A stretch of 64,000 bases of DNA from Candidatus Bathyarchaeota archaeon (GTDB lineage: Archaea > Thermoproteota > Bathyarchaeia > Bathyarchaeales > Bathyarchaeaceae): contig SOJZ01000039.1 in NCBI GenBank assembly GCA_004376295.1, positions 1-64,000 on the forward strand, in the 5' to 3' direction. The first letter of the stretch is position 1; every line of letters starts with the position of its first letter. A program made the translations under genes and the position numbers. The notes below the pieces were generated by a model. It saw nothing but the letters and a program-made list of their open reading frames with translations. It was not told where the DNA came from and searched no databases. Positions 1,407 to 34,282 of the stretch are shown piece after piece.

Positions 1407-1658
1407 TTGGTTCGTAGTCGTCGGGGGCAGATGGATATCATCATGGATATTCTAGCTGAGGCTTCGAAGGAGGTGAACAAGACCCGTATTGTTTATGGGG
1501 CGAACTTGAACTTCAATCTTGGTCAGAAATATTTGTCTCTGCTTATTGATAAGGAGCTTTTAATTAAGGTGGCTGGGGATGGAGGGACGCTCTATAAGAC
1601 TACGGAGAGGGGCATAGAGGTTTTGAATAATTATAGAAGGATTAAGCGGTTTGTTTAA
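1407..1658 (+). CDS. Winged-helix transcriptional regulator (HTH_45/ArnR-like)
   Basis: This 83-residue protein starts with TTG. It has the layout of the short archaeal winged-helix proteins of the HTH_45 type: an N-terminal SRRGQMDIIMDILAEA helix, the NKTRIVYGANLNF recognition region, a LSLLIDKELL helix, and a wing ending in TLYKTTERGIEVL. It very probably binds DNA as a dimer. It converges on the second winged-helix gene at 1722-1973. The same convergent arrangement, with a clear paralogue (NKTRIMYRANLNF), recurs at 18149-18829. No target is visible, although the surface-protein locus starts 650 bases downstream. Confidence 0.85.
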   Translation: MVRSRRGQMDIIMDILAEASKEVNKTRIVYGANLNFNLGQKYLSLLIDKELLIKVAGDGGTLYKTTERGIEVLNNYRRIKRFV

Positions 1659-2105: not shown

Positions 2106-2301
2106 GTTAAATACAGAATATATGACATCATCAACCTTGTGAAGCTGCGCGTATAGCAATGTGTATGAAAGCTTTCATGGTGCCGAGGGAGGGGCACGTT
2201 AAAGATTCCTTTCAGGGGGACTAAACTTGGGAGCCCCCTTTAAAGGGTTAGACGTGGAAGCGCCTGGCCTGATGATAGCCCAAACAGAGAAAGGAGGATG
2301 A
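2106..2301 (+). promoter_or_regulatory. Promoter and structured leader RNA, copy 1
   Basis: A TATA-like GTTAAATAC (2106-2114) is followed by a ~140-base leader that is repeated before the second surface locus (27553-27773). Elements in order: a 14-base palindrome (2164-2177); GTGCC/GGCAC stem (2180-2184 with 2193-2197) followed by GTTAAA; a GGGGG/CCCCC hairpin (2215-2238) whose 24 bases are identical in both copies, loop core ACTAAACTTGGGAG; a second TTAAA; a GGGTT/AGCCC stem (2245-2249 with 2277-2281) containing CCTGAT; then GGAGG and GATAAAA directly before the start codon. The pattern of conserved stems with diverged loops suggests a cis-acting RNA. I do not recognise a known riboswitch class. 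Confidence 0.65.
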
Positions 2302-2305
2302 TAAA

Positions 2306-2962
2306 ATGAGAATGGATAAAGGAGCTGTACTGGCTAGCATGGTAGTTATTGCTTTGGCAAGCGTCTTCGCCGGAGCAGGAACAATGGCATACTTCAGTGG
2401 TGTCACGAATAAAAGTGGGTCATTCGCGACGGGGACTCTTACGCTAGACGAAGTGGCTTCAAATGGCTGGATCTTAAGCGATCTTAGTCCTGGAGATGAA
2501 TGGACGACTCAGATAGAACTGGAGAACACTGGATCACTTGATGCAATGTACGTCTATATGGGATTCTATATTTCAGCGGGTGCAGACCTTGCAGATAAAA
2601 TAGTGCTGGAAGAGATGGAAGAGTGGTGCTATCTGAATGGATGGTGCATAACTACATTTGACGAGACTACATCTAATTCTTGGCTTACTTTCTGGGGTGG
2701 CACTGCGGATGGTTCAATCAGCTTGTATGACTTAGCGACTGTTGCTATGACAGGGGGATCAAGCACGACGACGAGCATAAAATTGCATACAGGAGATCCA
2801 CCGGCTAGTGGTCCATACCTGCCCGCTACAAGACATTGCATTATAAAGTTGAAGTTCAAACTGCTTGAGGACACCAACAACCCTTACCAAGGAAAAACTT
2901 GTAGCTTCACAATCAAGTTCATAGCGACCAACGCCGTAGGTAGTGACGTAGACAATCTCTGA
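2306..2962 (+). CDS. Secreted camelysin/TasA-like surface protein
   Basis: This 218-residue protein opens with a SipW-type signal sequence: a charged N-terminus, the hydrophobic MVVIALASVFAGAGTMAYFS, then FATGTLTLD, as in camelysin, CalY and TasA precursors. The remainder is a beta-rich ectodomain with DLSPGDEWTTQIELENTGSL and paired cysteines (EEWCYLNGWC), with no second membrane helix. It should be exported and processed by the signal peptidase encoded next to it, and may form surface fibres or matrix. The ATG is fixed by GGAGG 8 bases upstream. It is the first gene of its locus and lies directly behind the structured leader. Confidence 0.8.
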   Translation: MRMDKGAVLASMVVIALASVFAGAGTMAYFSGVTNKSGSFATGTLTLDEVASNGWILSDLSPGDEWTTQIELENTGSLDAMYVYMGFYISAGADLADKIVLEEMEEWCYLNGWCITTFDETTSNSWLTFWGGTADGSISLYDLATVAMTGGSSTTTSIKLHTGDPPASGPYLPATRHCIIKLKFKLLEDTNNPYQGKTCSFTIKFIATNAVGSDVDNL

Positions 2963-3028: not shown

Positions 3029-4027
3029 ATGAAATTAAAAATAATTGGAACTGTGGCTTTGACCGCGATATGCTTACTGTTAGTTATTCCTACCCTTATC
3101 CATGCTTTTCCGTTCCTTGCGGGAGCCAATAGCTCCTACACCGTTATGAGCGGAAGCATGAGTCCCACTCTGAAACCCGGCGACTTAATATTGGTGAAAC
3201 AAACCGATCCAGCAACCGTTGACGTGAATGATATAGTAACTGTGAAATATGAAACAGGAGTTTTCACGCATCGAGTTTTCGAGAAGAAGTTTGAGGAGGG
3301 CATATACTTGTTCAAGACGAAGGGAGACGCCAACGAAGAGCCAGATCTAGGCTGGTGGAACGCCTCTCAGATCATGGGAAAAACGGTTTTCGTCATCCCC
3401 CTTGGACATTTGTACTCTCCTTACGGTTACACCTTATCCTTCCTAGTTCCCTGCGTTCTGCTGGTGGGGAAACAGATGAAACATGTTTTTTCTCTGTTTA
3501 AGCGCCGGAGCAAACGGGAGTTCAGAAGGTGGAGAAGGCAAAAGCATCCTGTTTTGGACACGACAAGCGTGCTTCTACTTTTTATCTTGGTGATTAGTGG
3601 CAGTTGGCTTGTGGCTCCCTACTTCCAACTGGGCTCTTTCAGCTACTTCTCCGACTCAGAGTGGGCAGAAGCCACTTTCACCGCTGGCCAATGGGTTGTA
3701 GAAGTTGAGATAGATATAGACCCGGACACGCTTAACCTGGGAAGCCAAGGCACATGGACAACCATATATGCCTACATCAAGCCATCCGGAGATTACAACG
3801 CGAGTGATGTGGACGTGAGCACCATTCTCTTGGAGATCATCCCGGCGGATTGGGGCGATGTGCAAGGAGAGAACTGCTTTATGGCTAAGTTTAATAGAAC
3901 TTCCGTGATAAACTACTTGTTTGATGCAGGATACGGAGACGGTGACGTGGTGATGTTAACGGTGACCGGACAGTTTACAGAAGGAATGTCTTTCCAAGGC
4001 AGTGACACCATCAATCTGATAGAGTGA
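3029..4027 (+). CDS. Signal peptidase I fused to a camelysin-like ectodomain
   Basis: A 332-residue two-part protein. Residues 1-145 are an archaeal/ER-type signal peptidase: an N-terminal helix, the catalytic serine in VMSGSMSPTLKPGDL, the catalytic histidine in FTHRVFEK, and KTKGDANEEPD, followed by a second membrane helix (LSFLVPCVLLVG). After a basic cytosolic linker (KRRSKREFRRWRRQK) a third helix leads into FSYFSDSEWAEATFTAGQWVVEVEIDID. This resembles a camelysin/SipW-dependent N-terminus followed by a beta-rich extracellular domain. It is probably the dedicated peptidase for the preceding protein. Its end overlaps the next gene by 4 bases. The signal peptidase at 31889 lacks the C-terminal half. 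Confidence 0.85.
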   Translation: MKLKIIGTVALTAICLLLVIPTLIHAFPFLAGANSSYTVMSGSMSPTLKPGDLILVKQTDPATVDVNDIVTVKYETGVFTHRVFEKKFEEGIYLFKTKGDANEEPDLGWWNASQIMGKTVFVIPLGHLYSPYGYTLSFLVPCVLLVGKQMKHVFSLFKRRSKREFRRWRRQKHPVLDTTSVLLLFILVISGSWLVAPYFQLGSFSYFSDSEWAEATFTAGQWVVEVEIDIDPDTLNLGSQGTWTTIYAYIKPSGDYNASDVDVSTILLEIIPADWGDVQGENCFMAKFNRTSVINYLFDAGYGDGDVVMLTVTGQFTEGMSFQGSDTINLIE

Positions 4028-5085
4028 ACGTTCAAATGCAGAGATACGTTCGCAACAAAGTAAAACTTGCACTCGCTGTTTTAATCATCTTATTAGCTTT
4101 CTCAGGCTACCTCATCTATTTTTTTCACAATAAACCTCTCACACACAGCAGATATGTGGCAAACTGTGAGTATCAACAGCAAGTCGACTACAATTACGTA
4201 GCATCCATCAAGCCTTCCATGCTCTACGAAAACAGAACCAAGCTTTTACCCGGCGAAACAGCCTACAGATCCCTAATCAAAAGCCTCAACATCTCATTAA
4301 CCTACAACTTCAGCAGCAACCCATCACCAGAACATGTTGAATTAACCTATGGCGTTTCAGCGGTGTTGGAGGCGGAAAAACAGTGGAGCAAGGAGTTTGT
4401 TTTAACCTCGGAGAAAACCCAGAACACGCCGGATATCAAGGAAACATATGAATTGAATTTGACGGAAATCGAAGAGTTAATCAAAACCATAGAGAAAGAA
4501 ACCGACACCCGCGCATCCACGTATTACTATAAAATTGTTCCAAAAATACGCTTAAACTCGTCCACAGCCGTAGAATCCATAATAGAGGAGTACACTCCCA
4601 CCCTCCAGATAAAGTTGGCACCCACAATTCTCGAGTTCACAGGGCTATCACACACAAAACTAGGATCAATTGGAAACCAAGAAACGTATGAAACCAGTTG
4701 GAGCCTCGCTGGCTTCACTACAACCATTAAGAACATGCGGTACTTCTCCTACGCTTTAGTTCTCTTGTTCTCAGGTTGCTTAATGCTCATGGTTTGGCGA
4801 ACACAAAAAATACCGCCTCCCCCCTTCATGGAAACGATAAAAAAGGAATACCGAGAGAAAATCATCGAAGCCAAGGAACCGCTAACCAAGAAAGTAGAAA
4901 AGGCCACCATAAAAGTGGAATCCGTGGAAGACCTCATGAAGGTATCCGAAGAAACCTTCAAACCCATCATACACGAAACTTCCACCATGAAAAAAAGAAA
5001 AGTGAAACGGCACACCCTCTACGTCCTGGACGCGGACATAAAATACGAGCTGGTGATGGAGGAACCCATAGAATCAACGCGTTGA
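4024..5085 (+). CDS. DUF5305-family membrane protein
   Basis: This 353-residue protein has an N-terminal signal-anchor helix (LALAVLIILLAFSGYLIYFF), a ~220-residue beta-rich extracellular domain with YNYVASIKPSMLYENRTKLL, a second helix (about 240-258), and a charged cytosolic tail containing VEDLMKVSEETFKPIIHE and the terminal TLYVLDADIKYEL motif. This matches DUF5305 proteins, which are found beside signal peptidases in archaeal surface loci; function unknown. It overlaps the signal peptidase gene by 4 bases. A paralogue is at 29966-31063, and remnants of the same tail motif are scattered from 32.4 to 39.4 kb. Confidence 0.8.
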   Translation: MNVQMQRYVRNKVKLALAVLIILLAFSGYLIYFFHNKPLTHSRYVANCEYQQQVDYNYVASIKPSMLYENRTKLLPGETAYRSLIKSLNISLTYNFSSNPSPEHVELTYGVSAVLEAEKQWSKEFVLTSEKTQNTPDIKETYELNLTEIEELIKTIEKETDTRASTYYYKIVPKIRLNSSTAVESIIEEYTPTLQIKLAPTILEFTGLSHTKLGSIGNQETYETSWSLAGFTTTIKNMRYFSYALVLLFSGCLMLMVWRTQKIPPPPFMETIKKEYREKIIEAKEPLTKKVEKATIKVESVEDLMKVSEETFKPIIHETSTMKKRKVKRHTLYVLDADIKYELVMEEPIESTR

Positions 5086-26601: not shown

Positions 26602-27117
26602 TTATATTTCTTCTATTGCTTTGAGGGTGTCGCGGTAGATTTTTGTGTTTAGGTAGAAGTTTGCTTCTATTAGTTTGTTGAGCATGTCTTTGGCTGTTGC
26701 TTTTGTTATGTGTTTTTTCTTGGTTGCGTTTAGGATTATGAAGATTGTGCCTTTTGGGTGGAGTCCGAGGTGTTTTGCGATTTGTCTGGCGTTGGTTTCG
26801 TCTATTAGGATTTGTTTTTCGTTTTTTTGTTTTGCTAGGATGATGGCTTGGGCTTCGCCGATGTCTATTCCTGTCATTTCTGCTATGGCTTTGGATTTTT
26901 TTAGGTTTTCTTCTGAGATTGTGTGTATGGTTATCCATTTGTTGGTGATTGCCTGTTCTATGGTGTATGCGTCTGGGTGTCCTTTTGCTTTGCCTTGGTT
27001 GACGGTTTCTTTTGCGACTTCTGGTGGGATCTGTATTTGGTTGAACAGAGTTTTTAGAAGGTGAAGTTTTTGTATGCTTGCGAGGTAGATGAGTGGTGTG
27101 GCGTTGCTGATGGGCAT
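26602..27117 (-). CDS. DUF3368-type PIN-domain toxin
   Basis: A 171-residue PIN-fold protein: NATPLIYLASI at the N-terminus, IPPEVAKETVNQG, the acidic GIDIGEAQAIILAK, and ILIDETNARQIAKHLGL. This is the DUF3368 pattern (a predicted nucleic-acid-cleaving PIN relative). It is transcribed from the upstream UPF0175 gene, 7 bases away. The pair is a known toxin-antitoxin combination. The codons are strongly A/C-biased, like other resident genes of this zone. Confidence 0.85.
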   Translation of the reverse strand: MPISNATPLIYLASIQKLHLLKTLFNQIQIPPEVAKETVNQGKAKGHPDAYTIEQAITNKWITIHTISEENLKKSKAIAEMTGIDIGEAQAIILAKQKNEKQILIDETNARQIAKHLGLHPKGTIFIILNATKKKHITKATAKDMLNKLIEANFYLNTKIYRDTLKAIEEI

Positions 27118-27124
27118 GGGTGTT

Positions 27125-27442
27125 TTACTCCGTTGTGGCGGCTTTGATGTCTTCTTCGAGGTCTTTTTTGGTGTATTTGAATGGGATTCCTTGGTCTGTG
27201 GCTAGTTGCATCATTTCTCTGAGTGTTGTTTCGGCTGTTCTTGCTGCTCGCCATAGTGTTATTTTTCCTTTTCGGTATTGTTGTAGGGCGTGTTCTTTTT
27301 TCCATTCTTGAATGGCTTTTGCTAGAAGTTTTCTTATTGTTGTCGCTCGGTCGGTTTTTTCTCTTTTTTCGATTTCTTTTAGTGCTTCAGCCATTTCGTT
27401 TGGGATGCGTGTGGATATGACTTCAGTCATGGTGTTTTCCAC
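27125..27442 (-). CDS. UPF0175-family antitoxin
   Basis: A 105-residue protein with an N-terminal ribbon-helix-helix (TEVISTRIPNEMAEALKEIE, then RATTIRKLLAKAI) and the UPF0175 core (ALQQYRKGKITLWRAARTA, then ATTLREMMQLATDQGIPF). It should bind DNA to autoregulate and neutralise the PIN protein encoded downstream. It may start at the first ATG (MENTMTEV) or the second, 12 bases later. Confidence 0.85.
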   Translation of the reverse strand: MENTMTEVISTRIPNEMAEALKEIEKREKTDRATTIRKLLAKAIQEWKKEHALQQYRKGKITLWRAARTAETTLREMMQLATDQGIPFKYTKKDLEEDIKAATTE

Positions 27443-27552: not shown

Positions 27553-27773
27553 GTTTTAAATAGTCTGTGCGCAGAAAACAAGGGTTTGGTTGACGCATAG
27601 CGCTATGCTATAAGGAGGAGCTATGGCGATGAAGACCCTTCGGTGCCGTAATCAGAGGTGCACGTTAAATATGGTCTGGTTCGGGGGACTAAACTTGGGA
27701 GCCCCCGTTAAACGGCTAGGCTCTACGTCTAAGCCTGATAGCCCGTAAAGAAAAAGGAGAGTGATAAAAGAAA
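27553..27773 (+). promoter_or_regulatory. Promoter and structured leader RNA, copy 2
   Basis: GTTTTAAATA (27553-27562) is a likely TATA box. A perfect 14-base palindrome GCATAGCGCTATGC (27595-27608) follows. The conserved leader then runs: GAAG/CTTC hairpin (27631-27641), GTGC/GCAC stem (27643-27646 with 27660-27663) plus GTTAAA, the GGGGG/CCCCC hairpin (27683-27706; 24 bases identical to copy 1), GTTAAA again, and a bulged hairpin GGCT-AGGCT/AGCCT-GAT-AGCC (27714-27743). GGAG and GATAAAA precede the start codon at 27774. The order and spacing match copy 1 at 2164-2301. Confidence 0.65.
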
Positions 27774-28484
27774 ATGAATAAGAAATTCCTTGTTGCGTTG
27801 ATATTACCACTGTTGCTGATACCACTTGCTTCATTTGCTTACGCTCACAACTATGATTACGTTGAGAAGAAATACAAGTTGCATGTTGGAACGATGTGGG
27901 CAAACATCACTTATTTCCATGTAGATTATGCAAAGGTCATGGACCAAGACAATGATGGCGAGATTTTCGATGATGAGCTTAACATAACGGTCTTTGAAGA
28001 CAATTGCATATGGAAAGTGCACATCGAGGTTGATCCTGTCTCCGGAGGCTTTGTGCTAAACACCACTATGGAGATTACAAACCTTGGAGACCTGCCTTGG
28101 ACAGTCACTTGGGCGAGGGGGGCTGGCGGATTTTGGCCACGATGGGGCAATTCCACTGAAGATTTATGCTGGGATGAAGAGCCCACTAAGAGCTTCCCAA
28201 TGTGGCCTTCGGAGCTATGGAGCTGGGAAATAAAATATTACAAAGACAACAGCACCAAGGGAGGGGCCGTATACCCCGCCGCAGTAACCGAGCACAAATA
28301 CAAACCAGGAGACGTCTTCCGAGTAGTACAGCACATCAACTTGATACAACCTGGCACTGACCTAGAAGCTGAATTGTACAAGGAGATAATGGGTTCATGG
28401 TTCTACATCTGGGAAATATTCATGTTCGAGAGCGAAGACCTTATCGAAGACAGCAGTTGGACATTTGGGACGCCGACCGGTTAG
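27774..28484 (+). CDS. Secreted surface protein A of second locus
   Basis: A 236-residue exported protein. Its signal peptide (KKFLVALILPLLLIPLASFAYAH) is followed by VEKKYKLHVGT, and the start of 29149-29805 is similar (LLPMLLAPLMSFSYAH, then VVKKYKLHI), so the two are paralogues. The body is beta-rich, tryptophan-rich and acidic, including DQDNDGEIFDDELN, a possible calcium-binding loop. No C-terminal anchor is seen. It is the first gene behind the conserved leader and so corresponds in position to the camelysin-like gene at 2306. It is probably a matrix or fibre subunit cleaved by the locus's signal peptidase. Confidence 0.75.
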   Translation: MNKKFLVALILPLLLIPLASFAYAHNYDYVEKKYKLHVGTMWANITYFHVDYAKVMDQDNDGEIFDDELNITVFEDNCIWKVHIEVDPVSGGFVLNTTMEITNLGDLPWTVTWARGAGGFWPRWGNSTEDLCWDEEPTKSFPMWPSELWSWEIKYYKDNSTKGGAVYPAAVTEHKYKPGDVFRVVQHINLIQPGTDLEAELYKEIMGSWFYIWEIFMFESEDLIEDSSWTFGTPTG

Positions 28485-28510: not shown

Positions 28511-28532
28511 CTTCCATCCCCTTTTTTAAACA
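28511..28532 (+). terminator. T-tract terminator after first gene of second locus
   Basis: CTTCCATCCCCTTTTTTAAA lies at 28511-28530 and matches the string at 2981-3005 in the first locus. In both cases it lies between the first secreted-protein gene and the rest of the cluster. Confidence 0.5.
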
Positions 28533-28576
28533 TGAATTCACATATTAACGTGGGACAAAGTTTGAGTCGTATAAAA

Positions 28577-29152
28577 ATGCAAAAAAGGAGCAGAAACCTG
28601 CGGCTTTCAACCGCATTGGTAGCCCCTATGCTATTCATAATGTTAGCCAGCGTAGCTTATGCTGCCTTCTCTGACAGCGTCGCCGTAACGTTGGGACTTG
28701 AATCGGGAGTCATGGACCCACGCATAAGTGATTATTGGGTCATAGGATACTGTGGTTACGGCTACAACATAGCCTTAATCAATGATAACAAGACCCTCAC
28801 AGTAACCGATGATCTCTTGTTCTCAGGATGGAACCTCAAACTCCTCATTGAGATTGAAAACAACTCAACCCAGCGTCTAACTCTGAACTACACGATAACA
28901 TATCTTAATGGCAGTGATTGGATCGTGATCAATTCGACGCGTCTTTTCGATCTTACTGGAATTGAGTATTTAGACGGTTTCTATGAAGACCAAACATGCG
29001 AGACGCCGATTGGTGAAAATTTCGTACTCGAACCTGGCAATGTAGTATACAAAAGAGAGTACCTATCCTTTAACGTCCAAGATCACTCGAAGTTTCAAGG
29101 ACAAGACTTTGAATTCCACGTAACCATAGACTTTTATATATATGCAGGGTGA
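28577..29152 (+). CDS. Secreted camelysin-like protein B of second locus
   Basis: The start is placed at ATG 28577 (MQKRSRNLRLST); an ATG at 28532 would add 15 residues next to the T-tract. The signal sequence ALVAPMLFIMLASVAYAAFS followed by DSVAVTLGLESG resembles camelysin/SipW-dependent precursors. The ~160-residue ectodomain is beta-rich with IEIENNSTQRLTLNYTITYL and several N-glycosylation-type sequons (NST, NYT, NGS). It is probably an exported surface subunit. Its stop overlaps the start of the next gene. Confidence 0.7.
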   Translation: MQKRSRNLRLSTALVAPMLFIMLASVAYAAFSDSVAVTLGLESGVMDPRISDYWVIGYCGYGYNIALINDNKTLTVTDDLLFSGWNLKLLIEIENNSTQRLTLNYTITYLNGSDWIVINSTRLFDLTGIEYLDGFYEDQTCETPIGENFVLEPGNVVYKREYLSFNVQDHSKFQGQDFEFHVTIDFYIYAG

Positions 29153-29805
29153 AAAAAATGTTAAACCGCAAAATATTAGCCCTAATTCTTCTCCCGATGC
29201 TTCTAGCGCCATTAATGAGCTTTTCCTACGCCCATGTTACAAGTTTCGTCGTGAAGAAATACAAGCTTCATATTCAATTCAGCTACCTCGACATAGAAAG
29301 CTACAAAATCTACAGCCCCTGGGGGTCTTCGGGAGACGACAACATAACCGATCAACTCTTCGACGACACTCTGTACATCAACACCACCGTATTCCCAAGC
29401 TGGCACGCATGGGTAGGTCTAGTCATAAAAAACAACGGCATCTTCAACATGAAATTGGAAGAACCCACCTATCAAATCATAATGACCCCAGAAGACAGTG
29501 CAACATGGAACGCAAACGAATTCTACTACGGACCCTACACAGAAGCAGGATTTAACCCCCTTGTCTGGGGCGACATAACTGGCGACAATTACCAAGACAA
29601 ACTGGACCCCGATGAGGGAGTGATAGGTGTGGAATCCGAAGACCCTCCTGTGTATCTTGAACCACCACCAGCCAGTCGCAACAAGTGCAAACTAATTATG
29701 TGGATATATCTTCACATCGTTGAGGGCCCAGATGATTTCATAATGGAATTATCTATTATCATAACTGGAATCATGACAGACGTCTCATGGGTAGAAGAGC
29801 CTTAA
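29149..29805 (+). CDS. Secreted surface protein C, paralogue of protein A
   Basis: A 218-residue exported protein with a GTG start at 29149 or ATG at 29158. The signal peptide (LALILLPMLLAPLMSFSYAH) and VVKKYKLHIQF match protein A. The body has repeated aromatic/acidic segments and a D-rich loop (DITGDNYQDKLDPDEG) that could bind calcium. It overlaps protein B's stop by 4 bases. It probably assembles with A and B at the cell surface. Confidence 0.7.
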   Translation: MKKMLNRKILALILLPMLLAPLMSFSYAHVTSFVVKKYKLHIQFSYLDIESYKIYSPWGSSGDDNITDQLFDDTLYINTTVFPSWHAWVGLVIKNNGIFNMKLEEPTYQIIMTPEDSATWNANEFYYGPYTEAGFNPLVWGDITGDNYQDKLDPDEGVIGVESEDPPVYLEPPPASRNKCKLIMWIYLHIVEGPDDFIMELSIIITGIMTDVSWVEEP

Positions 29806-29965: not shown

Positions 29966-31063
29966 ATGACGAAAAAACCCAAAATTGCCACTATCTTGCT
30001 TATCTTTTTTATATTACTTACTCTGGTGTCGCTCCTATTCCTATACTATACTCACGCAATCCCTCTTGAAAAGACATCGGTGACCTCACTATACACTTAT
30101 GGATATCAGGGAACCTACAACTACATCGCTGCCCTTAAACCAAACACAATATATGACAACAAAACAACACTGAAACCCGGCGAAGGGCCCATTTACAGAA
30201 GAATAACAGATCATATTGACGTAAACTTCACATATGTTTTCGAAGGTAACCTACCGGCGAACTTCACGATCAAATACAGCGTTCATGAATACGTAGAAAC
30301 AGCTCATTGGAGAAAACAAATCAGTGAACTCCCTCAAAAGAACATAGAAACCACGGGAACTAGGTCAGACCTCTCTATCAACAATATTACGACCATAGAC
30401 CCCCCCTCAATTCAAGAATTTGTCAACGAGATCAATGAAGAAACTGGAATTCTTGCGAGTCAATACAGCTTAAACATTACAATAAAAATGTACATCGAAG
30501 CAAAAACCAGCGTAGGCACAGTTAACGAATCCTTCATGCCCACATTGAAAGCTGAATTCCAAAGCAGCGCAAGTGAAGGAGAAATTATATCCATAAGCGG
30601 TTTAGAACAAGGCAAAACAGGTGAAATCACGGAAACAGAAAAAATATACCAGCTAGGGGTACAACAGAACAGAAACATATCCTACGGTGTGTCCGTAGCA
30701 TCGTTCGCTGGTTTAGTCATAAGTGCATGGTTTTTCATAAGAACAAGACCTCCCAAGCCATCGAAACCCGAAAAACTGCTCGAAGATATCATTGGGCCTT
30801 ACGAGGAAATAATCGCGGAAGCAGCTCAAGAGGTAAGTGAAAAAGATCAGCTTTCTAAACCTGGTACTACATTAGCCATAAAGACATTAGAAGATCTTGT
30901 CAAAATCGCTGACACCTTGGAAAGGCCCATTCTCCACAGCTACAAACCACCAGAAACCCACATCTTCCGCATAATTGACGATGCTGCACAATATGAATTC
31001 ACTACGACCATTTCAACCTTAGCAAAAAGAAAAGCTATCATGGAAGAAGAGGAAAACGAATGA
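29966..31063 (+). CDS. DUF5305-family membrane protein, second locus
   Basis: A 365-residue protein with an N-terminal helix (IATILLIFFILLTLVSLLFLYY) and an extracellular beta-rich domain containing GTYNYIAALKPNTIYDNKTTL, the same signature as YNYVASIKPSMLYENRT in the first locus. A second helix follows (about 240-256), then a cytosolic tail IKTLEDLVKIADTLERPILH ending near RIIDDAAQYEF. It overlaps the CPBP-like gene by 4 bases. DUF5305 function is unknown; constant pairing with signal peptidase suggests a role in handling or anchoring the secreted subunits. Confidence 0.8.
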   Translation: MTKKPKIATILLIFFILLTLVSLLFLYYTHAIPLEKTSVTSLYTYGYQGTYNYIAALKPNTIYDNKTTLKPGEGPIYRRITDHIDVNFTYVFEGNLPANFTIKYSVHEYVETAHWRKQISELPQKNIETTGTRSDLSINNITTIDPPSIQEFVNEINEETGILASQYSLNITIKMYIEAKTSVGTVNESFMPTLKAEFQSSASEGEIISISGLEQGKTGEITETEKIYQLGVQQNRNISYGVSVASFAGLVISAWFFIRTRPPKPSKPEKLLEDIIGPYEEIIAEAAQEVSEKDQLSKPGTTLAIKTLEDLVKIADTLERPILHSYKPPETHIFRIIDDAAQYEFTTTISTLAKRKAIMEEEENE

Positions 31064-31872
31064 GCCTTCCATCAAAAACAATCAGCATAGTTACCTCCAT
31101 CATATTATTCTTGATAGCTCTCGCCTTAGAGCAAATATACGATGTTATTATCCTCTACGGCACAATACCCACATGGTTTTACCAAGTGCTCTTTCTATCC
31201 ATCCCGTGCATAAGCTTGATTGCTTTCGGCCTTCTCATCAAACTGACAAAATCCAACTTCAAAAAGCAAGGCTACAAAAAACCTGCAGGCATTAATACTC
31301 CAAGATGCATACTCCTCAGCATCTTCTTTGTGATAATATACCTCTCTATCATTTTAGCCCAAGGCTTCTTCGGAAACCTAGGATCGTTGAACTTACCCAC
31401 AACCCCTTACTTACTCATGCTTAGGATAGCTATTGCAATAGTCTACGGCTTCTTCAGCGAATCCGTGTTCAGAGGATACATCTTTAGGAATCTAACAAGA
31501 CACTACGGTTTGTTTACGTCTCTTTACGCTTCTTCCATTTTGTTCAGCTTGCACAAAATCTCCATAAGAGAGATCCCCTCTATAACCGCCGATCCAATCT
31601 TTTACATATTTACCCGCATTGTACCCCTCCTCGCCGCAGGCCTATTTCTCAGTTTCTTCTTCTACAAAATCAGATGGAGCCTTCTAGGACCATTAATATT
31701 CCGTATAGGCTTCCTACTCTTCTATGAACCTACACCTCTCATTAGCGCAACTTCACCATGGTGGATAGCCCTCGCATTCGAAATGGCAGCACTCGCAGTT
31801 CTCATTCTGCTAGTGGACACCATCATCAAAGAACCACGATACCGCCGAAAAAGATACGGCTTAGAAGAGTAA
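31060..31872 (+). CDS. CPBP-type intramembrane protease-like protein
   Basis: A 270-residue protein with about seven hydrophobic segments. FFSESVFRGYIFRNLTRHYG corresponds to motif 1 (EExxxR) of CPBP/Rce1-type proteases, and SSILFSLHKI to motif 2. The first glutamate is serine here, and the phenylalanine four residues before the histidine is leucine, so activity may be altered or lost. CPBP proteins cleave or chaperone membrane peptides. Lying between DUF5305 and the signal peptidase, it may process or protect the secreted proteins. The first locus has no equivalent. Confidence 0.65.
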   Translation: MSLPSKTISIVTSIILFLIALALEQIYDVIILYGTIPTWFYQVLFLSIPCISLIAFGLLIKLTKSNFKKQGYKKPAGINTPRCILLSIFFVIIYLSIILAQGFFGNLGSLNLPTTPYLLMLRIAIAIVYGFFSESVFRGYIFRNLTRHYGLFTSLYASSILFSLHKISIREIPSITADPIFYIFTRIVPLLAAGLFLSFFFYKIRWSLLGPLIFRIGFLLFYEPTPLISATSPWWIALAFEMAALAVLILLVDTIIKEPRYRRKRYGLEE

Positions 31873-31888
31873 AAAATAGGGCATCTCA

Positions 31889-32389
31889 ATGAAGCTTAAA
31901 AAAAAACAACGAAAACTTCTAATTGACATCTTAATAATAATCGCAATCCTCGCAGGAACCTACCTAGCCTACATGGGCCTCCAACTCTTTCTAACAACAG
32001 ACACTCCCCTCGTAGCGATAGCTTCTGGAAGCATGAGCCCTGCTCTTGAAGCCGGAGACCTCGTCATAATTCAAGGAGTCTCACCAACCAACATCCAAGT
32101 AGAAGACATCATAGTCTTCGACAAGCCACAAGGAAGCCGCACAATCCACAGAGTAACCCAAATACAAACCCTACCAAACGGAACAATACAGTTCAAAACA
32201 AAAGGAGACGCCAACGCACGCGAAGACCTTCAATGGATACCAGAACAAAATGTCCACGGACGAGTCATACACCGAATACCCTACATAGGCTGGCTAGCAC
32301 TAGACCCAACAATCCCAATAATAATCATATCAATCGTCGTTATCATCATAATCCTCTGGCCAGAAAAACGCAGAAAACTACGCCGCTAG
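31889..32389 (+). CDS. Signal peptidase I (archaeal SipW-like)
   Basis: A 166-residue archaeal/ER-type signal peptidase: an N-terminal helix (LLIDILIIIAILAGTYLAYM), the catalytic serine in ASGSMSPALEAGDLV, the catalytic histidine in RTIHRVTQI, TKGDANAREDL, and a C-terminal helix (TIPIIIISIVVIIIILWPE) with a basic end. It should remove signal peptides from the three proteins of this locus. Unlike the enzyme at 3029 it has no C-terminal ectodomain. Confidence 0.9.
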   Translation: MKLKKKQRKLLIDILIIIAILAGTYLAYMGLQLFLTTDTPLVAIASGSMSPALEAGDLVIIQGVSPTNIQVEDIIVFDKPQGSRTIHRVTQIQTLPNGTIQFKTKGDANAREDLQWIPEQNVHGRVIHRIPYIGWLALDPTIPIIIISIVVIIIILWPEKRRKLRR

Positions 32390-32448
32390 CTCCCCCTCTA
32401 TAGATTAGTCACACACGCGCACATCCACAGAGAAACGATAACAATAGA

Positions 32449-32600
32449 AACCCTAGAAGACCTAGCAAAAACATCAGAAAACCTAGTCAAACCAATCTTC
32501 CACACAAAAGGATCCACCACCCGCGAAACAACATAGACATTCTACATACTAGACAACAACACAAAATACCAATACACAACAGAAGAACCACCTCAGAAGC
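32449..32600 (+). pseudogene. DUF5305 3'-end remnant 1
   Basis: Translation gives IETLEDLAKTSENLVKPIFH, then TTRETT, a TAG, and TFYILDNNTKYQYTTEEP. This is the C-terminal tail of DUF5305 (compare IKTLEDLVKIADTLERPILH in the intact protein). The upstream part of the gene is missing. The TAG at the same place recurs in remnant 2, so those two copies share an already broken ancestor. Confidence 0.75.
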
Positions 32601-32645: not shown

Positions 32646-32921
32646 TTGACCGCAACTATAAAAATCGAACATGTGAAAAAAGAAAAGCTGGACAAGTTTC
32701 TTGCCTCCCTACTACTTCAACAAGGCGTGAAAATAACCCTCCAAGAAGCAGTCGGCTTGATGGTAGACTACGCCCTCGAAAACGAAGAAGACATCATCAA
32801 AAGACTTGAAGAGCTACCTCCTCTAGAAGATGATCCCGCGTGGAAAGCCCTTGAAAACCCCATGCACTGGGGAATAAAAGACTCCTCAAAGAGAATAGAC
32901 GAATTCCTCTACGGGAGATAA
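32646..32921 (+). CDS. VapB-like antitoxin
   Basis: A 91-residue protein with a TTG start directly upstream of a PIN toxin (4-base gap). The N-terminus TATIKIEHVKKEKLDKFLAS followed by GVKITLQEAVGLMVDYAL has a ribbon-helix-helix look. The acidic C-terminus (LPPLEDDPAWKALENPMHWG) is typical of the toxin-wrapping segment of VapB proteins. TATTTAAGTG at 32607-32616 may be its TATA box. Confidence 0.75.
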   Translation: MTATIKIEHVKKEKLDKFLASLLLQQGVKITLQEAVGLMVDYALENEEDIIKRLEELPPLEDDPAWKALENPMHWGIKDSSKRIDEFLYGR

Positions 32922-32925
32922 ACCT

Positions 32926-33333
32926 TTGGCCGTATTCATCGACACAGGCATCTTTGTCGCCCTAAGGAACGCTGACGACGAACACCACATAAGAAGCAAA
33001 CAACTAATAAAAAAAGCGTTGAAAGGCGAATTCGGCAGAGTATATACATCCGACTATGTCATAGACGAAGCAATAACAACAGCTCTTGTGAGAACGAGAA
33101 GACATGACTTGGCCGTAGACATCGGCAAATACATCATCGAATCACCAAGAATCACAAAATTGTGGACCACAAAAGACATCTTTGATACGGCATGGCAAAA
33201 ATTCAAAACCTTCAAGGATCAACCCCTAAGTTTCTCCGACTGCGTATCATTAGCCCTCACGGAAAAAAACCGGATCAAACAAATCATAAGCTTCGACTCA
33301 GGCTTCGACGGACTAATTCAGAGGATCTATTAA
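32926..33333 (+). CDS. vapC: VapC PIN-domain toxin
   Basis: A 135-residue PIN-domain ribonuclease with the conserved acidic residues in place: FIDTGIFVAL, YVIDEAITT, LSFSDCVSLAL and ISFDSGFDGL. VapC toxins cut tRNA or rRNA when freed from VapB. The TTG start follows the antitoxin stop by 4 bases. Confidence 0.88.
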   Translation: MAVFIDTGIFVALRNADDEHHIRSKQLIKKALKGEFGRVYTSDYVIDEAITTALVRTRRHDLAVDIGKYIIESPRITKLWTTKDIFDTAWQKFKTFKDQPLSFSDCVSLALTEKNRIKQIISFDSGFDGLIQRIY

Positions 33334-33751: not shown

Positions 33752-34043
33752 ACGACCCCCCTAGGTAGGGGATCCTGCGGTTAAGGAGTACGTGCGCGTT
33801 TGCAACATCACATGAAAACTCGCGTCCTCCAATATAGCCGCCATCTTTTCCCATCTTTCTGCATCTATTCCTATCTTTTCCTATCTTTCTATATCTTTTT
33901 GTATCTTTTCCCATCTATTCCTATCGTGGGATAAACCGTTTTCAAGCTTATTTTCAAAAAACCAACGAAAAACAAGCTTTGTGAAGAACAAAAAAATTTT
34001 AGGGGGGGTCTATAAGAGAGAGAGACACACAAATAACATAACA
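33752..34043 (+). repeat. Dispersed element with 10-bp periodic repeat, copy 1
   Basis: This shares most of its ~290 bases with 39680-40042. Parts in order: a CCCCCTAGGTAGGGG palindrome (33755-33769); GGTTAAGGAG; ACGTGCGCGTTTGCA; CATCACATGA; eight units of the 10-mer (C)TATCTTTTC and variants in perfect 10-base register (33841-33925) closing in ATCGTGGGATAAACCG; then TTTTCAAGCTT and AAGCTTTGTGAAGAAC in a loose inverted arrangement; an A/T run; TTTTAGGGGGGG; and AGAGAGAGA. No gene is inside. The layout (iteron-like array beside an A/T-rich stretch) resembles a replication or partition site, but this is inference. Confidence 0.75.
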
Positions 34044-34064
34044 AAAAACCCATAAAAGACATAA

Positions 34065-34282
34065 TTGCACCATACAAAGAGATCATAGCAGAAACAACCG
34101 AAAAACCACCAGAAACAACACAAACAATAACCATGGAAACCCTAGAAGACCTAACAAAAATAGCAGAAAACCTAGTTAAGCCGATTCTACACAAAAAAGG
34201 ACCCAAAACCAACGGACAAACAACATAGACATTCTACATACTAGACAACAACACAAAATACCAATACAAAACAAAAGCATAA
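34065..34282 (+). pseudogene. DUF5305 3'-end remnant 2
   Basis: The largest remnant: PIKDIIAPYKEIIAETTEKP, then METLEDLTKIAENLVKPILH, then GQTT, a TAG, and TFYILDNNTKYQYKTKA with a TAA at the end. It aligns with the last ~100 residues of the intact DUF5305 protein at 29966 (DIIGPYEEIIAEAAQEV, then TLEDLVKIADTLERPILH). It lies directly after the 10-bp-periodic element. Confidence 0.75.

Follow-up and report, generated by a model that had tools for sequence, protein, structure and literature searches.

To our knowledge, few riboswitch-type RNAs have been described in archaea. In the crcB fluoride riboswitch, a hairpin loop pairs with the 3′ tail, and an A-rich linker and a second hairpin lie in between. 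The preQ1-II riboswitch is an H-type pseudoknot with a hairpin inserted in its third loop and is located at the ribosome-binding site. The crcB riboswitch is one of the few riboswitch classes found in archaea (PMC2864571).

We analyzed a window of 64,000 nucleotides from a Candidatus Bathyarchaeota archaeon (contig SOJZ01000039.1). Two leader RNAs lie where the original prediction had placed them, each ahead of a surface-protein operon, and share the predicted identical 24-mer (GGGGGACTAAACTTGGGAGCCCCC; 2215–2238 in leader 1, 27683–27706 in leader 2) and (G/T)TTAAA linkers, together with a TGATAGCCC tail. The 24-mer has no further site in the host genome even with 3 mismatches (the reversed control likewise gave 0), and the loop 14-mer at up to 2 mismatches matched three times in the window against an expectation of 0.49, a count not attained in any of 100 shuffles. 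When the two window leaders were folded by nested MFE, no signal emerged (z-scores −1.25 and +0.55). Because the two copies fold no better than shuffles, the test had to come from relatives, and homologues in other archaea supplied the proof of the fold that two copies alone could not.

The homologues bear out a structured leader but redraw its stems as two pseudoknots, both missed by the original prediction, plus a hairpin, P4. What had been taken for a third, CCTGAT-containing stem is rather P4 together with a tail whose pairing partner is the identical hairpin's loop. An outer stem drawn earlier (GGGTTA/TAGCCC) can form in part of the family only, and the inner P4 with the loop–tail knot fits better. 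The elements of the two leaders are as follows.

2180–2213 (+): leader 1, unit 1, the H-type pseudoknot on the upstream side; 13 unit-1 homologues retain complementarity in P2
2180–2183 with 2194–2197 (+): leader 1, P1, GTGC/GCAC
2187–2193 with 2207–2213 (+): leader 1, P2
2198–2203 (+): leader 1, unit-1 linker GTTAAA
2214–2283 (+): leader 1, core (unit 2); R3 covariance-model match at 2213–2287, 70.5 bits, E 2.3e-15 in the window
2214–2219 with 2234–2239, plus CT/AG 2221–2222 with 2232–2233 (+): leader 1, P3, enclosing the conserved loop
2240–2244 (+): leader 1, unit-2 linker TTAAA
2245–2270 (+): leader 1, P4 hairpin
2271–2278 (+): leader 1, string GATGATAG
2227–2231 (TTGGG) with 2279–2283 (CCCAA) (+): leader 1, PK2
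2291–2297 (+): leader 1, Shine-Dalgarno AAGGAGG, start codon at 2306
27643–27681 (+): leader 2, unit 1
27643–27646 with 27660–27663 (+): leader 2, P1, GTGC/GCAC
27650–27656 with 27675–27681 (+): leader 2, P2, AATCAGA/TCTGGTT
27664–27669 (+): leader 2, unit-1 linker GTTAAA
27682–27745 (+): leader 2, core (unit 2); R3 match at 27681–27750, 62.4 bits, E 2e-13
27682–27687 with 27702–27707 (+): leader 2, P3
27708–27712 (+): leader 2, unit-2 linker TTAAA
27713–27735 (+): leader 2, P4 (GGCT/AGCC, 27714–27717 with 27732–27735)
27736–27741 (+): leader 2, TGATAG
27696–27699 (TGGG) with 27742–27745 (CCCG) (+): leader 2, PK2
27754–27759 (+): leader 2, Shine-Dalgarno AAGGAG, start codon at 27774

Comparison among genomes gives good support for assigning the window leaders, with this structure, to an archaeal RNA family outside Rfam. 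A search of 100 relatives allowing 3 mismatches yielded four convincing sites among many chance matches. These four and the two window leaders went into a six-sequence covariance model that added four to five sites within the order. A second model widened the family to class and phylum, and a third, confined to the core, recovered the same members. The family as located by the covariance models comprises 30 sites, each ahead of a start codon, from 28 genomes; the weak matches L060 and L088 are left out of this set. Carriers are found among Bathyarchaeota, Hadesarchaea, Culexarchaeia, Methanomethylicia, Nitrososphaeria, and “Thermoprotei” MAGs, and the element is sparse, occurring in 14 of 257 genomes of the class. 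When 84,980 species genomes were scanned with an exact pattern, 17 places matched, 16 of them archaeal leaders; the remaining one (L067, a gammaproteobacterial contig) is without the P3 hairpin and was rejected as chance. A viral origin was likewise discarded: one pattern had 0 matches, and another had 7, at chance level and none confirmed by the covariance model. The whole window gave no match to Rfam 15 at the gathering threshold, and lax Rfam scans of leader 1 and three homologues gave chance-level scores only. Hence, no existing Rfam family covers the element, and the members collected by the covariance-model search are not mere sequence duplicates, as they carry compensatory changes. Comparative analysis demonstrates that the RNA family exists, which helices it forms, where it sits, and which genes it accompanies.

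The core is an H-type pseudoknot comprising the P3 hairpin, a UUAAA linker, a variable P4 hairpin, the string GAUGAUAG, and a tail CCC that pairs back to the P3 loop, with the consensus CCGGGGG-ACUAA-n-GGG(GAU)-AG-CCCCCG-UUAAA-P4-GAUGAUAG-(C/GU)CCC(C). In alignment A8 (29 sequences; P3, P4, and PK2), 90.4% of cells are paired versus 34–58% when slid, 11 pairs show two-sided changes, and the covariation score of 0.258 (0.014–0.082 when slid) was reached by 0 of 500 shuffles. Pairing is therefore kept while the bases differ, as had been proposed for the two window copies, and each of the three helices is backed by compensatory changes. Four pairs are compensated in P3: its outer pair may be C-G, A-U, or U-A, one G-C is replaced by A-U, and two others are flipped to C-G. 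P4 differs almost wholly in sequence and length between homologues, with pairing kept beside UUAAA and GAUGAUAG. In PK2, loop GGG/GGGG stands opposite tail CCC/CCCC with flanking pairs U-A, U-G, or C-G; where the loop has the GAU insertion, the tail is longer by a U or GU, and in a single divergent PK2, UGGC stands opposite GUCA. PK2 is just 3 bp long in seven sequences, and loop–tail complementarity exceeds that of permuted loop/tail pairings (p 3e-4; these permutations ignore relatedness). The loop ACUAA and the single-stranded GAUGAUAG are highly conserved.

Unit 1 is present in 13 leaders, the two in the window and 11 others. It consists of P1 (CGUGC/GCACG), the loop of which pairs downstream as P2 (7–9 bp) past a (G)UUAAA-type linker. 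Being a second, upstream pseudoknot with its own linker, it turns these leaders into tandem pseudoknots, and since P2 adjoins P3, the two knots can stack. P2 sequences diverge strongly with complementarity kept (13 homologues, permutation p 1e-4); support for P1 is weaker (p 0.035). Over half of the homologues are missing unit 1. As judged by sequence inspection, leaders without it often carry a simple hairpin at that position, which makes unit 1 look like an exchangeable module, and the family shows a pseudoknot core gaining an upstream pseudoknot module in some lineages. The weak match L060 (1501–1569), ahead of a surface-protein gene, has a pseudoknot resembling unit 1 but no canonical unit 2.

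The overall topology is of the fluoride and preQ1-II riboswitches' kind, but membership fails on the features tested. The leader shares with crcB (RF01734) a hairpin-loop/tail pseudoknot with an intervening hairpin, as seen from covariation. However, it gives no crcB match at gathering or with the E cut-off relaxed to 5 or 10, its conserved letters are different, and its genes encode exported fiber or surface proteins rather than fluoride/ion transport or stress functions. With preQ1-II (RF01054), it has in common an H-type knot with an inserted hairpin beside the ribosome-binding site. Whereas the Shine-Dalgarno strand itself forms the knot in preQ1-II, the leader's CCC tail ends 4–17 nt upstream of the Shine-Dalgarno, and there is no Rfam match. 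The SAM-II riboswitch (RF00521) was rejected at 11.4 bits versus 36 required (E 1.9, in L064 only). The general riboswitch feature of a conserved structured 5′ UTR with compensatory changes is present. No description of this RNA family was found in the literature searched, which left out most subscription papers and preprints; nor did the searched papers yield a structured leader RNA for TasA/camelysin–SipW or AbpX operons, or RNA-level control of archaeal fiber or biofilm operons.

At 30 of 30 sites, the knot ends 11–33 nt (median 24) before the start codon, with the Shine-Dalgarno, where one was called, 4–17 nt past the CCC tail. TATA-like boxes precede P3 by about 100–127 nt in most unit-1 leaders and by 43–60 nt in several compact leaders, so that the whole fold would be transcribed. 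The predicted unpaired probability of the Shine-Dalgarno ranges from 0.01 to 0.99 across homologues with no conserved fold hiding it, and therefore no ON/OFF platform is visible. Sequestration of the Shine-Dalgarno by P2 in leader 1 was dismissed, not being conserved among homologues, and an alternative pairing of a P4 strand with the tail (at least 4 bp) occurs in some sequences only. No reading frame across the element is conserved among homologues.

The genes behind the leaders form one functional class, exported fiber or surface proteins. In the window, these are the following.

2306–2962 (+): operon 1, first gene, camelysin/TasA-like fiber protein with SipW-type signal peptide (PF12389, 9.1e-13)
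3029–4027 (+): operon 1, signal peptidase S26, SipW-like (PF10502, 1.9e-5)
4024–5085 (+): operon 1, DUF5305 protein (PF17231, 1.8e-17)
27774–28484 (+): operon 2, first gene, exported protein; profile A10 with leader-linked relatives matches AbpX
28532–29152 and 29149–29805 (+): operon 2, two further small exported-protein genes, no Pfam match
29966–31063 (+): operon 2, DUF5305 (Pfam)
31060–31872 (+): operon 2, Rce1-like protease
31889–32389 (+): operon 2, S26 signal peptidase

All first proteins with enough sequence begin with a hydrophobic, signal-peptide-like segment. Most leader-linked operons encode TasA/camelysin- or AbpX-like fiber proteins plus a signal peptidase, resembling TasA/camelysin–SipW and AbpX bundling-pilus operons in their fiber proteins and dedicated signal peptidase. 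The first protein of operon 1 also matches TIGR04088 above cut-off, NF046066 (4.9e-9), and TasA (8aur, E 2.8e-4). Profile A10, built from the leader-2 protein and its leader-linked relatives, matches AbpX (archaeal bundling protein; 9sj2, E 1.6e-13; 9rhp, 3.2e-9); searched alone, the leader-2 first protein gave no AbpX match. The AlphaFold model of the leader-2 protein was too poor to use, and that of a relative best matches TasA, weakly (E 0.01), so the fiber assignment rests on sequence profiles. The two first proteins, originally called non-homologous, are indeed dissimilar, at 17% in alignment A9, yet each has the look of a TasA/AbpX-type fiber protein. Because different protein genes stand behind the leaders, their likeness lies in the RNA and not in the coding sequence, as had been argued from the two copies. 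The operon plan recurs elsewhere with “...AHWSD...” proteins, and the exported proteins behind other leaders are unrelated: a squalene-cyclase-like repeat protein and Ig-like surface proteins. Leader and DUF5305 co-occur in 6 genomes of the class (Fisher p 4.8e-5). DUF5305 is found also without the leader, a search upstream of other DUF5305 genes turned up no divergent leader, and the TasA-type operon L126 is leaderless, which makes the leader optional. No metabolic gene or transporter hinting at a ligand is attached to the leaders.

A translation-level switch fits best with the site beside the ribosome-binding site, the conserved unpaired strings, and the unrelated exported proteins, and the leader probably switches the fiber genes on or off. 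That it is a cis-regulatory, riboswitch-like translation leader for surface fibers we regard as close to an even call, our confidence being lowered by the lack of both a conserved Shine-Dalgarno-hiding platform and a ligand-naming gene. That the leader regulates at all, that it acts on translation, that its ligand is small, and in which direction the effect goes are inferred. In this model, the conserved unpaired strings ACUAA, UUAAA, and GAUGAUAG, brought together by the fold, would bind a small molecule or ion; binding would stabilize loop–tail docking, and docking would alter ribosome access to the neighboring Shine-Dalgarno. The output would be the amount of TasA/AbpX-type surface fiber, signal peptidase, and related exported protein. 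More tentatively, the family may represent a new archaeal riboswitch class of one or two stacked (G)UUAAA-linker pseudoknots that senses a surface-attachment or envelope signal and controls bundling-pilus (TasA/AbpX-type) translation across several archaeal phyla. With its consensus defined, covariation shown, and a covariance model that works, the family makes it directly testable what uncultured archaea sense when building surface fibers, and the outcome includes an Rfam-ready alignment.

The conserved ACUAA loop and GAUGAUAG would also suit a trans-acting protein, either a fiber-assembly checkpoint or a general RNA-binding protein, that would repress or activate translation on recognizing the loop and pseudoknot. 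The one or two copies per genome before one functional class of genes, and small winged-helix genes near several leaders, point the same way. We nevertheless consider a protein-binding leader unlikely: no single neighbor gene is common to all sites, HTH_45-type proteins such as those nearby normally bind DNA, and the first proteins belong to several unrelated families, so that product autoregulation cannot explain all cases.

Slightly less likely again is a constitutive role, in which a rigid 5′ structure in the mRNA would shield the transcript from exonucleases or boost fiber-protein translation without switching. Tandem stacked pseudoknots near the predicted 5′ end, the high expression that structural proteins need, and the absence of a visible switch platform are consistent with such a role. 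Conservation of specific unpaired letters over several classes goes beyond a roadblock's need, however, the tight start-codon spacing suggests the ribosome, not the 5′ end, as the target, and related operons manage without a leader.

Self-cleavage or processing that trims the leader is highly improbable. Unit 1 (CGUGN...NCACGUUAAA, loop paired downstream) resembles the stem and pseudoknot of the pistol ribozyme (RF02679), with CACGUUAAA after the stem. Lax scans of three unit-1 leaders, however, gave no pistol match, no HDV or other ribozyme match appeared even in lax Rfam scans, no equivalent of the pistol-type cleavage-site hairpin was identified in the leader, and more than half of the family does without unit 1. 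Least probable of all, and rejected, is a conserved leader peptide, for although leader 2 and L053 share a frame that spells GGLNLGAPVK over the hairpin, loops of 11–18 nt put homologues out of frame with one another, none of the frames stays open in every homologue, and the changes are compensatory. The riboswitch-like translation leader remains our preferred reading.

Several further features were observed around the leaders. Leaders of the host genus open with an extra hairpin, CGCATAGC/GCTATGGCG (27594–27625 and the G001 copies L033 and L034), the loop of which contains AAGGAGGA, followed by a start-like codon; its stem appears to covary among the three copies. Small HTH_45 winged-helix genes are located near leader-bearing fiber operons in the window (1407–1655, +), and similar genes lie near L071, L072, L073, L075, and L078. 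Directly upstream of leader 2, on the opposite strand (26602–27442, −), lie DUF3368/PIN-type and UPF0175 proteins, a toxin–antitoxin-like arrangement. Behind operon 2, two degenerate copies of the DUF5305 3′ end (32420–32540 and 34037–34267, +), one of which carries a TAG in frame, lie on either side of a PIN-domain toxin-like pair (32646–33333), suggesting recombination or insertion at this position.
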